Assembly (NCBI RefSeq): GCF_002563855.1
Contig: NZ_PDJQ01000001.1
Location: forward strand, 992,001 to 1,056,000
DNA: 64,000 nucleotides
Reading direction: 5' to 3'
Origin: Tepidiforma thermophila
Lineage (GTDB): Bacteria > Chloroflexota > Dehalococcoidia > Tepidiformales > Tepidiformaceae
Part shown: piece after piece, positions 52,922 to 60,103 of the stretch
Numbering within the stretch: position 1 is the first letter of the stretch
How the letters are laid out: each line of letters starts with the position of its first letter
The notes under the pieces: model-generated
Seen by the model: the letters and a program-made list of their open reading frames with translations, nothing else
Database searches by the model: none
Told to the model about the DNA's origin: nothing
Position numbers and translations under genes: made by a program

Positions 52922-54004
52922 ATGGCCGGCGAACGCACCGAAGCGCCAACCCCAAAACGCCTGCGCGATGCCCGCCAGAAGGGCGACGTCGCCCACAGCG
53001 ATGAGGTCGTCTCCATCGGCGTCCTCCTCCTTGCCGTCCTCGCCCTTCGCTTCCTCGGGCCCCAGCTCTGGAACGACATGGCTGCCATCCTCGCCCAGGA
53101 CCTCGGCCACCCCGTCCCCGAGCTCACCCCCGAATCCGCCCAGCAACTCGCCCGCGAGTCCGCCTGGCGCATGATCCAGGCGCTCCTCCCCCTCCTTGCC
53201 CTCCTCGCGGTCGCCGCCATCGCCCTCAACATCGTCCAGACCGGGCCGCTCCTCGCCGGCGCCCGCATCAGGCCCCAGCTCAGCCGCGTCAACCCCGGCG
53301 CCGGCCTCAAGCGCATCGTCTCCTGGGATGGCGCCTTCCGCCTGGTCAAATCCCTCCTCAAATTCGCCATCATCGCCGTCGTTGTCGGCCTAACCCTTCG
53401 CGGCCAGTTCGGCGACCTTGCCGGCCTCGGCGCGCTCAGCATCGGCGCCGCCACCGCGAAACTCGCCGCCCTCGGCTTCGATATCGCCTTCCGCGCCGCC
53501 GGCGTCCTCTTCCTCCTCGCCCTCGCCGATTACGCCTGGCAGCGACGCCAGCACCTCAAACGCCTCCGCATGACCCGCCACGAGCTCAAACAGGAGCTGA
53601 AGGAAACCGATGGCGACCCGCAAATCAAAGCCGCCATCCGACGCCGGCGCCAGCAGCTCCTCAACCGCATGATCGCGGCCGTCAAAACCGCCGACGTCGT
53701 CGTCACCAACCCCACCCACTACGCCGTCGCCCTCAAGTACGACGCCGTCTCCATGCCCGCCCCCATGGTCGTCGCCAAGGGCCAGGACTACCTTGCCCTC
53801 CGCATCCGCGACGTCGCCCGCGAGGCCGGCGTCCCCGTCCTCGAAGAGCCGCCCCTCGCCCGCGCCCTCCACGCCAGCGTCCAGGTCGGCCAGTACATCC
53901 CGGCCAGCCTCTTCCACGCCGTCGCCGAAGTGCTCGCGTGGGTCTACGCCCTCCGCGCCCGCGCCGGCCGCCGCACCAATCCCGCTCAAGGAGCCGCCCG
54001 GTGA
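52922..54004 (+). CDS. flhB: Flagellar export switch protein FlhB
   Basis: 360 residues. N-terminal EAPTPKRLRDARQKGDVAHS, four membrane helices, and a cytoplasmic domain with the self-cleavage motif NPTH near 263 (VVTNPTHYAVALKYD). Cleavage at this site switches substrate from rod/hook to filament in known systems. Stop overlaps the flhA GTG (GTGA). Confidence 0.95.
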   Translation: MAGERTEAPTPKRLRDARQKGDVAHSDEVVSIGVLLLAVLALRFLGPQLWNDMAAILAQDLGHPVPELTPESAQQLARESAWRMIQALLPLLALLAVAAIALNIVQTGPLLAGARIRPQLSRVNPGAGLKRIVSWDGAFRLVKSLLKFAIIAVVVGLTLRGQFGDLAGLGALSIGAATAKLAALGFDIAFRAAGVLFLLALADYAWQRRQHLKRLRMTRHELKQELKETDGDPQIKAAIRRRRQQLLNRMIAAVKTADVVVTNPTHYAVALKYDAVSMPAPMVVAKGQDYLALRIRDVAREAGVPVLEEPPLARALHASVQVGQYIPASLFHAVAEVLAWVYALRARAGRRTNPAQGAAR

Positions 54005-56115
54005 CCGTCCAGGCCCAGCCACGCCCCGCCAGCGCCAGCCTCGGCCGCCTCCTCGGCCAGACCGACATCCTCCTCGCCGTCGGCCTCATCACCATCGTCG
54101 GGATGATGATCATCCCGCTGCCGCCGACCCTCATCGATGTCCTCCTGACCATCAACCTGGCAGTCTCCGTCGTCATCCTCCTCGTCGCCATCTATACCGA
54201 AGAGCCGCTCAAGTTCTCCGTCTTCCCCTCCCTCCTCCTCATCACCACCCTCTACCGTCTCGCCCTCAACGTCTCCACCTCCCGCCTCATCCTCCTCCAG
54301 GGCGACGCCGGCGAAGTCGTCCACTCCTTCGGCAGCTTCGTCGTCGGCGGCAACCTCGTCGTCGGCCTCGTCGTCTTCCTCATCCTCGTGGTCATCCAGT
54401 TCGTCGTCATCACCAACGGCGCCGGCCGCGTCGCAGAAGTCGCCGCCCGCTTCACCCTCGATGCCATGCCCGGCAAGCAGATGGCCATCGACGCCGACCT
54501 CAACGCCGGCCTCATCAACGAAGCCGAAGCCCGTGAGCGCCGCAAAGCCATCGGCCAGGAAGCCGACTTCTACGGCGCCATGGACGGCGCCTCCAAGTTC
54601 GTCAAAGGCGATGCCATCGCCGGCATCGTCATCATCCTCGTCAACATCATCGGCGGCCTCTCCATCGGCATCCTCCAGCAGGGCGTCGGCCCCGCCGAAG
54701 CCCTCAACCTCTACGCAAAGCTCACCGTCGGCGATGGCCTCGTCTCCCAGCTCCCCGCCCTCCTCATCTCCACCGCTACCGGCATCATCGTCACCCGCGC
54801 CGCCGGCGAAACCAACCTCGGATCCCAGGTCTTCTCCCAGGTCACCATGCAGTCGCGGCCGATGTACGTCGCCGCCGCCATGCTCGCCCTCTTCGCCGCC
54901 ATGCCCGGCCTCCCCCGCCTCCCCTTCCTCATGGTGGCTGCCGCCATCGGCGCCGGCGGCTACCTCATCGACCGCTCGAAGCGCCAGGCCGAGCTGGCGG
55001 CCCTCGCCGCCCGCCCCGAGCCGCTCCCCGAGCCCGAGCAGCTCGGCCCCCAGCAGGTCATCCAGATGATGACCGTCGACCCCCTCGAAATCGAAGTCGG
55101 CTACGGCCTCATCCCCATCGTCGACGAACAGGCCGGCGGCACCCTCCTCCGCCGCATTACCCAGATCCGCCGCCAGCTCGCCCTCGAACTCGGCATCGTC
55201 CTCCCCACCGTCCGCGTCCGCGACAACCTCGGCCTTGCCCCCAACGCCTACGTCGTCAAGCTCCGCGGCGTCGAAATCGCCCGCGGCTCCCTCCAGCCCG
55301 GCCACTACCTCGCCATGGACCCCGGCACCGCCGAAGGCGACATCCCCGGCATCGAAACCGTCGAGCCCGCTTTCGGCCTCCCTGCCCGCTGGATCACCCC
55401 CGCCTACCGCGAACGCGCCGAGCTCCTCGGCTACACCGTCGTCGACGCCGAATCCGTCCTCGCCACCCACCTCACCGAGCTCGTCCGCCGCTTCGCCCCC
55501 GACCTCCTCAGCCGCCAGGACGTCCAGGACCTCCTCGAAAACCTCCGCAAGGAGTACCCGGCCCTCGTCGACGACCTCATCCCCTCCACCCTCACCGTCG
55601 GCGAAGTCCAGGAAGTCCTCCAGAACCTCCTCGCCGAGCGCGTCTCCATCCGCGACCTCGTCACCATCTGCGAAACCCTCGCCACCCACGCCCGCGTCAC
55701 CCGCGATATCGACCTTCTCACCGAGTACGCCCGCGCCGCGCTCGCCCGCCAGATCAGCCGCCAGTACGCCGATGAATCCGGCACCATCCGCGTCATCACC
55801 GTCGGCCCCCGCACCGAAGAGGAGATCGCCGCCAGCATCCAGCAGACCGACCGCGGCAGCCAGGTCGCCATGCCCCCCTGGCAGGTCCAGCGCCTTATCG
55901 GCGTCGTCGCCGCCGAGGTCGAGCGTGTCGCCGCCTCCGGCCGCGAACCGATCATCCTCTGCTCCTCGCGCATCCGGCTCGCCCTCCGGCGCCTCCTCGA
56001 GCGCCGCCTGCCGAATGTCGCGGTCCTCTCCTTCGCCGAAATCACGCCCCAAACCCAGGTCGAAGCCATCGGCAATATCGAGGTGAACGTTGGAAACGAA
56101 GCGCTTCATCGGTAA
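54001..56115 (+). CDS. flhA: Flagellar export protein FlhA
   Basis: 704 residues. Eight membrane helices in the first half, with the FHIPEP signature region (SLLLITTLYRLALNVSTSRL; DAMPGKQMAIDADLNAGLI), then the four-part cytoplasmic docking domain (LIPIVDEQAGG; EYPALVDDLIPSTLTVGEVQ). It couples proton flow to protein export and receives chaperone cargo. GTG 54001 is coupled to flhB; the open frame goes further upstream inside flhB and is rejected. Confidence 0.96.
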   Translation: MTVQAQPRPASASLGRLLGQTDILLAVGLITIVGMMIIPLPPTLIDVLLTINLAVSVVILLVAIYTEEPLKFSVFPSLLLITTLYRLALNVSTSRLILLQGDAGEVVHSFGSFVVGGNLVVGLVVFLILVVIQFVVITNGAGRVAEVAARFTLDAMPGKQMAIDADLNAGLINEAEARERRKAIGQEADFYGAMDGASKFVKGDAIAGIVIILVNIIGGLSIGILQQGVGPAEALNLYAKLTVGDGLVSQLPALLISTATGIIVTRAAGETNLGSQVFSQVTMQSRPMYVAAAMLALFAAMPGLPRLPFLMVAAAIGAGGYLIDRSKRQAELAALAARPEPLPEPEQLGPQQVIQMMTVDPLEIEVGYGLIPIVDEQAGGTLLRRITQIRRQLALELGIVLPTVRVRDNLGLAPNAYVVKLRGVEIARGSLQPGHYLAMDPGTAEGDIPGIETVEPAFGLPARWITPAYRERAELLGYTVVDAESVLATHLTELVRRFAPDLLSRQDVQDLLENLRKEYPALVDDLIPSTLTVGEVQEVLQNLLAERVSIRDLVTICETLATHARVTRDIDLLTEYARAALARQISRQYADESGTIRVITVGPRTEEEIAASIQQTDRGSQVAMPPWQVQRLIGVVAAEVERVAASGREPIILCSSRIRLALRRLLERRLPNVAVLSFAEITPQTQVEAIGNIEVNVGNEALHR

Positions 56116-57154
56116 CGACACCACGCGCCTCTTCGCCCGGATCCGCCGCGAACTCGGGCCCGATGCCGTCATCCTCTCCACCCGCTCCCTCCACCGCGAG
56201 GGCGCACCGCCGCTCGTCGAGATCATCGCCGCCCCGCCCGGGCCCGCCGCCGAAGCCCTCCCCCTCCACCTCCAGCAGGTTGTCCTCGAAGAGACCCTCC
56301 GCCGCGTCGAAACCGCCCCCGGCGTCACCGTCGCCGACCTCGAAGCCCTCGCCGCCGCCGAGCCCCCGCCCCCGGCCCCCGACCCCCGCTTCCGCCCCGC
56401 CGCCCCGGCGCCGCTCCCCGCCCGCGAGGAGTCGCTCCTCGCCGCCTTCGAAGGCATCGGCTGGGACACCGCGGCTGCCCGCCGCGTCCTCGAAGCCGCG
56501 CCTGGTGCCCGCTCCCCGGCCGAAGCCGTCGAAGCCTGGCTCGCCGCCGCCCCCGCCTCCTACCCGCCCGAGGGCGCCACCGCCCTCATCTCCATCCAGG
56601 GCCCCGAAGGCGCGGGCCGGACCACCGCCCTCCTCAAGATGGCGCTCGACTGCGCCGATGCCGGCCGCCCCGCCGTCCTTGTCGCCGCCGATTCCGCCCG
56701 CGCCGGCGCCCACGACGCCATCCGCGCCTGCGCCGATGCCCTCGGCCTCCCCTGCAGCGAGGTCTTCGCCCCCGGCGACCTCGTCCGCGCGGTCAGCCGG
56801 GCCCCGCGCGGCGCCTGCCTCTTCGTCGATTGCCCCGCCGGCGCGTGGACCCCGCCGCCCATCCCCGGCGCCGCCCACTTCGCCTATCTAGCCATCCCGG
56901 CTCACTGGCAGCCCGCCGCCGTCCGGCCCGCCATCGAGATGCTTCCCCTCCCACGCTTCGCCGGCGCCGTGCTCACCGGCACGGACCTCGCTCCCTCCCT
57001 CGCCGGCGCGCTCCAACTGCTCGCCGAAACCGGCCTCGGCCTCGCCTTCCTCTCCGCCGGGCGCGATATCGCCGCCGGCATCGTCGTCGCCGAGCCCGCG
57101 AATCTCGCCGCCGGCCTCTTCCCCGCGCCGGCCGGGTTCGCCGCCATCGCCTGA
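56090..57154 (+). CDS. flhF: FlhF-like SRP GTPase with degraded nucleotide motifs
   Basis: 354 residues. N-terminal METKRFIGNDTTRLFARIRRELGPDAVILSTR is FlhF-like and a helical domain follows. The GTPase region has altered motifs: P-loop GPEGAGRTT (Arg for Lys), switch DCPAGAW instead of DTAGR, and TGTDLAP instead of TKLDE. GTP binding or hydrolysis is therefore doubtful. FlhF normally places flagella at the pole with FlhG, which is not seen here. TTG start at 56090 with GAGGTG 4 nt upstream; overlaps flhA by 26 bp. Confidence 0.85.
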   Translation: METKRFIGNDTTRLFARIRRELGPDAVILSTRSLHREGAPPLVEIIAAPPGPAAEALPLHLQQVVLEETLRRVETAPGVTVADLEALAAAEPPPPAPDPRFRPAAPAPLPAREESLLAAFEGIGWDTAAARRVLEAAPGARSPAEAVEAWLAAAPASYPPEGATALISIQGPEGAGRTTALLKMALDCADAGRPAVLVAADSARAGAHDAIRACADALGLPCSEVFAPGDLVRAVSRAPRGACLFVDCPAGAWTPPPIPGAAHFAYLAIPAHWQPAAVRPAIEMLPLPRFAGAVLTGTDLAPSLAGALQLLAETGLGLAFLSAGRDIAAGIVVAEPANLAAGLFPAPAGFAAIA

Positions 57155-57407: not shown

Positions 57408-58103
57408 ATGGGCGCCCCAGCCCCGCGGCCTAAGAATCCATTTATGGCCCAGGGTCTCCTCCCAGGCACCGCCCTCCGCATCGAGGTCTCCGCCCGCGAC
57501 GGCGACGAAAGCTACGCCACCCGCATCGAGGACGTCGATGATGAACGCGTCGCCATCCTCGTCCCCATGCGCGGCCTGAAGCCCCGCCCTCTCCCCGTCG
57601 GCACCCTCGTCCGCGCCGCCTACATCTTCCGCAACAAGCGCTGGCGGTTCGTCACCGAGGTCGCCGGCCACAGCGAAGACGGAGCCTGCGAGTACCTCCG
57701 CCTCCCCGCCTTCATCGATTGCCACGAGCGGCGCCGCAACTACCGCCTCCAGGTCGCCATCAAACCCTCCCGCATCTACCGCATCGCCGTCCCCGCCGAA
57801 GAAGAGACCGAAACCGAAGTCGAAATCGATGGCACCATCGTCGACCTCTCCGAGAGCGGCTGCTGCATCGCCTCCAAAGCCTTCGCCATGCCCGGCGAGC
57901 GCCTCGGCCTCGAGGCGCACCTCCCCGAGGCGGGCGACATCGCCGTCCGCGCCCGCATCGTCTTCGTCCGCGAACCCGAGCGCGGCTACCGCATGCGCCG
58001 CATCCACTGCGAGTTCCTCGATATGCCCCGCGGCCAGCGCGACCTCATCGCCCGCTACCTCATGCGCCGCCAGCTTGAAATGCGCCGGAGGGGCCAGCTG
58101 TGA
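57408..58103 (+). CDS. YcgR-like PilZ flagellar brake protein
   Basis: 231 residues. N-terminal YcgR-type beta domain (about 15-105) and a C-terminal PilZ domain with the c-di-GMP-binding motifs ERRRNYRL (RxxxR, near 107) and DLSESGCCI (near 147). Such proteins bind c-di-GMP and slow the motor. GGGAG sits 8 nt before ATG 57408; an ATG at 57444 is an alternative. It heads operon 3, and its stop overlaps the next GTG. The GGDEF-EAL protein at 32-34 kb could set its ligand level. Confidence 0.92.
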   Translation: MGAPAPRPKNPFMAQGLLPGTALRIEVSARDGDESYATRIEDVDDERVAILVPMRGLKPRPLPVGTLVRAAYIFRNKRWRFVTEVAGHSEDGACEYLRLPAFIDCHERRRNYRLQVAIKPSRIYRIAVPAEEETETEVEIDGTIVDLSESGCCIASKAFAMPGERLGLEAHLPEAGDIAVRARIVFVREPERGYRMRRIHCEFLDMPRGQRDLIARYLMRRQLEMRRRGQL

Positions 58104-58375
58104 ACCCCATCCCGCCCTTCACGATCGCCCGCTACGGCGTCTACGCCGCCCTGGCCATGGCCGTCGCGGCAGCCTGGCTCGGCACCCGCGCCGGCTACCC
58201 CTTCGACCAGGCCCTCATGCGCGCCATCTTCACCTTCGTCCTCGTCACCGCCGTCGCCTTCGGCGCCGAGGCCGTCATCCTCACCAGCCCCCCGAAGGCG
58301 CCGCCGCCGCAACCCCCCGCCGATTCCGCCGATTCCGGCGGCGAAACCCCCGAACACCCGGCGCCCGACGCCTGA
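58100..58375 (+). CDS. Small two-helix membrane protein in the flagellar operon
   Basis: 91 residues: helices AALAMAVAAAWLGTRAG and AIFTFVLVTAVAFGAEAVIL, then a Pro/Asp-rich tail. GTG start coupled to the PilZ gene (GTGA). No family recognised. Its position between PilZ and fliA suggests a role tied to the motor or its control; this is inference. Confidence 0.75.
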   Translation: MNPIPPFTIARYGVYAALAMAVAAAWLGTRAGYPFDQALMRAIFTFVLVTAVAFGAEAVILTSPPKAPPPQPPADSADSGGETPEHPAPDA

Positions 58376-59153: not shown

Positions 59154-59486
59154 ATGACCGACGTCATCGCCCTGCTCGCCATCTCCCAGCTCGTCACCCT
59201 CGGCGCCCTCTTCTACCTCTACCTCCAGGTCCAGCAGCTCCGCGCCGGCGCCCGCGCCATCCGCCACCGCTCGCCGCCCGCGGCCGAAACCGCTCCCGCG
59301 CCAGGCATCCCCGTCCGCGGCCCCGGCGCGGCCCGCGCGGCCCGCGCCTGCGCTGCCCCGCCCCGTCCCGCCATCGACCGGCTCCGCGCCGGCGGCCCCG
59401 TCGACGTCGCCGAGCTCGCCCGCCGCATGCACCGCAGCGAAGAGGAAGTCCGCCTCCTCCTCCGCCGCCAGGGGATCGCGTCATGA
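59154..59486 (+). CDS. Membrane-anchored small protein with HTH-like C-terminus
   Basis: 110 residues: one N-terminal membrane helix (IALLAISQLVTLGALFYLYL), an Ala/Pro/Arg-rich spacer and a C-terminal helical part resembling a helix-turn-helix (VDVAELARRMHRSEEEVRLL). Similar short proteins follow fliA-type genes in other bacteria (DUF6115-like), but I cannot assign a function. Coupled to the next gene (ATGA). Confidence 0.7.
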   Translation: MTDVIALLAISQLVTLGALFYLYLQVQQLRAGARAIRHRSPPAAETAPAPGIPVRGPGAARAARACAAPPRPAIDRLRAGGPVDVAELARRMHRSEEEVRLLLRRQGIAS

Positions 59487-60103
59487 CCCGCCGCGCGGCC
59501 GTCCTCGCCGCGGGCATCCTCGCCGCCCTCGTCGCCGCGCTCATCCCCCTCCCGGGAGCCGGCGCCAACGGCGTGCCCCAGCTCGTCAAGCTCACCTACC
59601 TCGAAGGCATCTCCAACTTCGGCCCCCGCAACGCCGAGGGCGTCCTCGAATTCTCCTTCTCCGAGGCCTACGCCCGCGTCGACGTCAAAAACCTCCCGCC
59701 CGTCGAGGGTTACGTCTACGAAGGCTGGCTCACCGGCGGCACGGCGGCCCCCTTCCGCGTCGGGACGATTCGCACCGGCGCCGACGGCATCGGCGTCCTC
59801 GATACCCGCCTCCAGGGCCTCACCTCCTACGACTACCGCCTCTTCGTCGTCGCCGCCCGGCCCGCCGGCGCCCCCGAGGACCAGCTCCCCGCAACCATCT
59901 CGATCGCCGGCCGCTTTACTGTCATCAGCGATGACGGCTCCTCCCCCGGCGACGTCCGCCCCGGCACCCTCCCTGACACGGGCGAGGCGCCCGGCCCCAC
60001 CACCATCGAGCGCGCCGCACGCGCCCTCTTCACCATGCTCGCCGTCGGCGGCATCGCCTTCGTGGCCCTGCGCATCACCTTCGCCAGGAGGAACTCCGCA
60101 TGA
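59483..60103 (+). CDS. Secreted protein with LPDTG sorting signal inside the flagellar operon
   Basis: 206 residues. Signal peptide (AAVLAAGILAALVAALIPLPG), one beta-rich extracellular domain (EGVLEFSFSEAYARVDVKNL; YVYEGWLTGGTAAPFRVGTI), an anti-sigma K/DUF-like layout, then LPDTGE, a hydrophobic helix (LFTMLAVGGIAFVALRITF) and ARRNSA. This is the form of a sortase substrate, though 18 residues separate motif and helix. Overlapping ATGA on both sides ties it to the unknown gene before and the rod/hook gene after. Possibly a basal-body sleeve or wall attachment; unproven. Confidence 0.82.
   Translation: MTRRAAVLAAGILAALVAALIPLPGAGANGVPQLVKLTYLEGISNFGPRNAEGVLEFSFSEAYARVDVKNLPPVEGYVYEGWLTGGTAAPFRVGTIRTGADGIGVLDTRLQGLTSYDYRLFVVAARPAGAPEDQLPATISIAGRFTVISDDGSSPGDVRPGTLPDTGEAPGPTTIERAARALFTMLAVGGIAFVALRITFARRNSA

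Follow-up and report, generated by a model that had tools for sequence, protein, structure and literature searches.

A Tepidiforma-family FlhF with altered GTPase motifs in genomes where FlhG is not found

Introduction

Nucleotide binding, hydrolysis and FlhG weigh differently in FlhF from species to species (PMC12826062, PMC12713375). The FlhF of V. alginolyticus has GTPase activity only with FlhG, and flagella are still built with the hydrolysis-dead R334A variant and likewise with G380A (PMC6092412). In the same study, the P-loop substitution K305A and the G4 substitution K437A reduce flagella, which still form, T306A, T436M and D439A abolish them, and a change of E440 to Lys kills the function of Vibrio FlhF. 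In P. aeruginosa, FlhF variants with impaired hydrolysis or nucleotide binding (K222A and D294A) are still bound by FliG (PMC6855561). In S. putrefaciens, FlhF binds FliG through its first 44-60 residues, and this FliG-interaction domain (FID) suffices alone (PMC11236974), while the NG domain of Shewanella FlhF binds HubP without GTP (PMC12713375). For the P-loop itself, a Walker-A Lys-to-Arg change in B. subtilis RecA removes ATPase activity and partly keeps ATP binding (PMC9769622). A pseudo-GTPase FlhF was sought without a match in the set of papers searched.

Tepidiforma, placed in the class Tepidiformia by NCBI and assigned to Dehalococcoidia in PMC10284905, is the sole cultivated flagellated genus of Chloroflexota; its strains are motile and the flagellum has been imaged by cryo-EM (PMC10284905). 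We analyzed the flhF locus in a window of 64,000 nucleotides (G000:C1:992001-1056000) taken from a single 2.74 Mb contig of a Tepidiforma genome that is 98.6% complete. An earlier note on this DNA had described an FlhF with degraded GTPase motifs and no FlhG next to it.

Results

The flhF locus and its neighbours

The window carries flhF within a run of flagellar and associated genes, all on the forward strand:

53938..56115, +, flhA, the upstream neighbour, which overlaps the start of flhF (TIGR01398, E 6e-268)
56090..57154, +, flhF, the sole FlhF of the genome (354 aa, TTG start)
57408..58103, +, gene for a YcgR-like PilZ protein, adjoining flhF in the slot that holds flhG in FlhG-bearing Chloroflexota
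58100..58375, +, gene for a small membrane protein of two helices, the second of which carries an invariant Arg; candidate FlgV (PMC10802407)
58395..59138, +, fliA (sigma-28; TIGR02479, E 6e-74)

The order flhB-flhA-flhF-PilZ-(small two-helix membrane protein)-fliA is common to all Tepidiforma-family loci examined, and so is the overlap of flhF with the end of flhA. An intact FliG is encoded elsewhere in the Tepidiforma genome.

The protein is an FlhF by descent and architecture

The identification of the 56090-57154 product as a true FlhF is supported by its FID, its NG fold and its adjacency to flhA. Pfam SRP54 matches it at 39 bits, above the cut-off, and TIGR03499 (FlhF) matches it with E 4e-22 and 79.5 bits, below the curated cut-off of 174.15. 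With this score, and without the G1 Lys, the DTAGR switch II and TKxD, the protein falls outside the GTPase equivalog. TIGR03499 gave no match above its cut-off in the genome, so that no second intact FlhF was found; the remaining NG-domain matches are FtsY and Ffh, which excludes a second intact copy elsewhere. Both proteins share the SRP-type NG fold and have intact GKTT and DTAGR motifs, showing that the change is specific to FlhF.

An AlphaFold2 model built from a 44-sequence alignment (mean pLDDT 90) confidently predicts an FlhF fold. Its nearest solved structure is S. putrefaciens FlhF 8r9r (Z 23.2 over 235 residues, 3.0 A), and an alignment profile matches 8r9r with E 3e-61. For the N-terminal end, the top PDB match of the family profile is the FlhF FID structure 9en1 (E 0.0012), and residues 1-48 form the same strand-helix-strand-strand arrangement as in a modelled intact Chloroflexota FlhF. 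The domains and motifs are laid out as follows:

56090..56233, +, FID, residues 1-48, strand-helix-strand-strand (pLDDT 92-97; omega 0.05-0.12)
56234..56419, +, variable linker, with two helices predicted within residues 49-110
56420..56569, +, helical N domain, residues 111-160, from the AlphaFold2 model and structure comparison
56600..56626, +, G1/P-loop GPEGAGRTT, residues 171-179, in which Arg177 (56618-56620) replaces Lys
56642..56668, +, family signature ALDCADAGR, residues 185-193, in the helix after the P-loop; ALDCxxxGR is invariant in the family
56690..56722, +, G2/insertion-box region DSARAGAHDAI, residues 201-211, with Asp201 kept
56828..56842, +, G3 DCPAG, residues 247-251, with Asp kept and DTAGR gone
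56843..56872, +, proline-rich loop, residues 252-261, at the site of the switch II helix deletion; 9 residues shorter in 19/19 relatives
56885..56908, +, family signature YLAIPAHW, residues 266-273, at the site of the ATTK-like motif of FlhF
56975..56986, +, G4 TGTD, residues 296-299, with Thr and Asp invariant and Lys lost

Compared with the FlhF GTPases of B. subtilis (2px0/2px3), S. putrefaciens (8r9r) and Vibrio, Tepidiforma FlhF thus has the same FID-linker-NG layout, fold, flhA-flhF order and co-occurrence with flagellar genes, but differs in its P-loop Arg, in the absence of the switch II helix, G4 Lys, DTAGR and FlhG, and in scoring below the TIGR03499 cut-off.

GTPase motifs are altered throughout the family

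The strings GPEGAGRTT, DCPAGAW and TGTDLAP are exactly as the earlier note had read them, and alignment to Chloroflexota FlhF, the check that it proposed, shows the changes to be clade-wide. We found 19 readable family orthologues, in a set of genomes of varying MAG quality where the T. flava and KatS3mg064 copies carry frame breaks. The P-loop is GxxxxGR in 17 of these and GxxxxGK in the two from one genus, and every one of the 19 has a G4 T-x-x-D without Lys and a 9-residue gap after G3, at the switch II helix. A shifted but intact P-loop was looked for and not found, as G171 and G176 are column-aligned with GxxGxGKTT in 44 FlhF. Since the changes are common to the clade, sequencing error or a frameshift is excluded as the source of the motifs.

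In the FlhA tree, the Tepidiforma family forms one clade with full support, and the motif changes map to its base. Arg at position 177 (codon CGG at 56618-56620) is ancestral in the family; the Lys pair is nested within the Arg clade (codons CGN versus AAG), indicating a single Arg-to-Lys reversal. The loss of the switch motifs, also claimed earlier, is borne out by the absence of DTAGR and goes further in the model, where strand 243-247 leads to strand 262-270 with no helix in between. A model of an intact Chloroflexota FlhF, made likewise, has a 12-residue helix (311-322) at this site, so the switch II helix itself is gone and not only the DTAGR letters. The earlier view of an otherwise preserved domain is therefore an overstatement.

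Outside these sites, the family has gained the invariant patches ALDCxxxGR and YLAxPAHW, while the G4 Lys, the DxxG Gly, the G2 Arg and the G2 Gln have drifted. Some relatives retain the G2 Arg, and the catalytic G2 Gln, absent in Tepidiforma, is present in most of them.

The nucleotide-pocket skeleton and the FID are conserved

G171, G176, D247, T296 and D299 are invariant in the family, T178, T179 and D201 are conserved in more than 90% of members, and only K or R occurs at site 177. The sites of this pocket skeleton are much more conserved than other G-domain sites (Mann-Whitney p = 3.4e-5), a pattern suggesting that some nucleotide binding survives and that hydrolysis and cycling are lost. 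Against retained binding, the P-loop glycines and threonines could persist for folding alone, and a protein without switch II and the G4 Lys might bind no nucleotide either. That guanine specificity is lost, as had been proposed, is too strong a statement given the invariant Thr296 and Asp299; with the G4 Lys gone, it is better described as weakened.

The conserved and changed sites can be set against the V. alginolyticus mutagenesis. Thr178, Thr296 and Asp299 are kept in Tepidiforma, and most of the changed sites are those that tolerate substitution in V. alginolyticus; the exception is the E440 equivalent, which is hydrophobic in the family (Leu300).

Among Tepidiforma genomes, omega is 0.05-0.12 for the FID end and 0.14-0.47 for the G domain, as expected under purifying selection, and by this measure no part of FlhF is better preserved than its N-terminal FliG-binding domain. 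Together with the match to 9en1, these values agree with the earlier view that the N-terminal region is kept. Of the 38 family genomes, 22 encode FlhF, and FlhA is found in precisely these 22; the flhF frame is open in the readable family members, with neither the broken frame nor the relaxed selection of a pseudogene.

In the complete genome of T. flava, whose strain is reported to be motile, flhA and flhF are both broken by several indels; these are probably assembly errors, because flhA is affected as well.

At moderate distances, the G domain diverges faster relative to FlhA than it does in the majority of lineages with FlhG, but four pairs with FlhG show a similar speed when short distances are matched. 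This rate, which is confounded by divergence, was dropped as an argument.

FlhG is not found, and its absence does not force motif decay

We searched for FlhG with a profile built from ten Chloroflexota FlhG, which recovers the true FlhG of three control genomes at 1e-95 to 1e-136. In the Tepidiforma genome its best match, at 1.9e-22, is a CpaE-like protein. For the Tepidiforma family, the E-values reach about 1e-27 at best, and for the other members of the class that were searched, 1e-29; by this profile FlhG is absent from all flagellated family genomes searched. The MinD-like genes of the Tepidiforma genome encode ParA, two CpaE-like proteins and Mrp, which are excluded as an FlhG encoded elsewhere, since none contains DQAxxLR. 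The reported lack of an adjacent FlhG therefore extends to the whole genome.

Where a Chloroflexota FlhF adjoins an FlhG of the DQAxxLR type, its motifs are intact at 10 of 10 loci, a raw locus count that ignores kinship, and they are also intact at an eleventh locus (L104) with a more diverged FlhG. An enlarged search for FlhG-bearing comparison loci added nothing new. Loci L092-L101 share with Tepidiforma the phylum, the flhA neighbour and the FID; in contrast to Tepidiforma, they have GPTGVGKTT, D[ST]PG and [ST]KxDE motifs and flhG directly downstream.

The P-loop Lys and mostly TKLDE are also found at loci without a bona fide FlhG (L024, L028, L102, L103 and L105-L109). FlhG-less lineages are thus split between kept and altered motifs, so that FlhG loss does not force decay and is excluded as its sufficient or sole cause; it may instead permit it. 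Within the class, the FlhA tree separates three branches with independently altered FlhF motifs, namely the Tepidiforma family, L025 and L060/L061. The latter two, likewise without a bona fide FlhG, have G1 and G4 altered by separate changes on other branches.

At L025 (G059, 1501-2520), the P-loop is GPPGAGSTT, the G3 Asp is absent and G4 reads TQAD. The motifs are intact at L024, the locus next to it in the tree. L060 and L061, of one genus (g106), have the P-loop GPPSTDKTS or GPASVDKTS and the G4 motif TGVDE or SGIDD. At L053-L059 (family f2), also without a bona fide FlhG, the P-loop is intact and TRCDE replaces TKxDE in G4.

Discussion

The explanation that we consider moderately probable is that the orthologous FlhF of this family has ceased to be a cycling GTPase and become a FliG-binding adaptor that needs no FlhG, perhaps locked on nucleotide. 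The FID would bind FliG and help to seed the MS/C-ring. The NG domain would fold as FlhF and retain the skeleton that contacts phosphate, Mg and guanine; without the switch II helix, the G4 Lys and, in 17 of 19 members, the P-loop Lys, it most likely would neither hydrolyze GTP nor cycle, and FlhF may stay permanently with weakly bound nucleotide. By analogy with RecA, the P-loop Lys-to-Arg change could spare binding and remove hydrolysis (PMC9769622). With FlhG gone, no GTPase activation would be required and selection on catalysis would fade, leaving the adaptor end and a folded, possibly nucleotide-stabilized NG domain under selection. The dispensability of hydrolysis in V. alginolyticus and the RecA precedent favour such a non-cycling FliG adaptor. 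We infer that Tepidiforma FlhF lacks hydrolysis, still binds nucleotide and FliG, and has a role in flagellar placement or number. The earlier note had suggested a pseudo-GTPase serving as a structural polar or basal-body factor; the altered motifs, the missing FlhG and the preserved FliG-binding end bear this out in part.

An alternative that we regard as rather unlikely is a true pseudo-GTPase, which binds no nucleotide and uses its G domain as a rigid scaffold where pocket residues persist structurally. The joint change of the P-loop Lys, G4 Lys, DxxG Gly and switch II helix would fit it, as would the new invariant patches, the GTP-independent binding of HubP by the Shewanella NG domain (PMC12713375) and the binding of FliG by the FID alone (PMC11236974). 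However, the invariant Asp299, Thr296 and Asp247 and the always-basic site 177 are hard to attribute to folding alone, and one genus has reverted from Arg to Lys; between a non-cycling, perhaps nucleotide-locked adaptor and an empty scaffold, we consider the adaptor about twice as likely. That the protein is instead a working NTPase of altered chemistry, with Arg177 and other residues replacing catalytic parts and perhaps with relaxed base specificity, seems improbable. The positive charge at 177 is kept, most relatives have the G2 Gln and some the G2 Arg, yet the switch II helix is deleted in 19/19, Tepidiforma lacks the G2 Gln and the FlhG activator is not found. We give very little credence to a decaying, functionless relic, even with a G-domain omega of up to 0.47 and the faster divergence relative to FlhA at moderate distances. 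Omega stays below 1, the FID and pocket sites are strongly conserved, the frame is intact in readable members, FlhA co-occurrence is strict, and the T. flava breaks, shared with flhA, look like assembly errors.

On a broader reading, the family would provide a natural, ancient and fully FlhG-free FlhF with a frozen GTP switch, in which basal-body seeding proceeds family-wide without an FlhF GTPase cycle, and lineages of the class without FlhG would have undergone similar decay three or more times; to this broader picture we assign an even chance. Because this clade swims although its FlhF is devoid of catalytic parts and FlhG is missing, it offers a natural experiment in which the adaptor function (FID to FliG) stands apart from the switch and, as Tepidiforma is cultivable, the question is directly testable.

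Other genes of the cluster

Two further products near flhF deserve mention. The small membrane protein at 58100-58375, between the PilZ gene and fliA, has a helix-2 Arg that is invariant across family orthologues and fits the FlgV family of PMC10802407, making it a candidate member. At 59483-60103, a secreted protein with a signal-like start, an LPDTG motif at 59969, a hydrophobic helix and an RR tail is, from these features, a predicted sortase-type anchor within the flagellar cluster.
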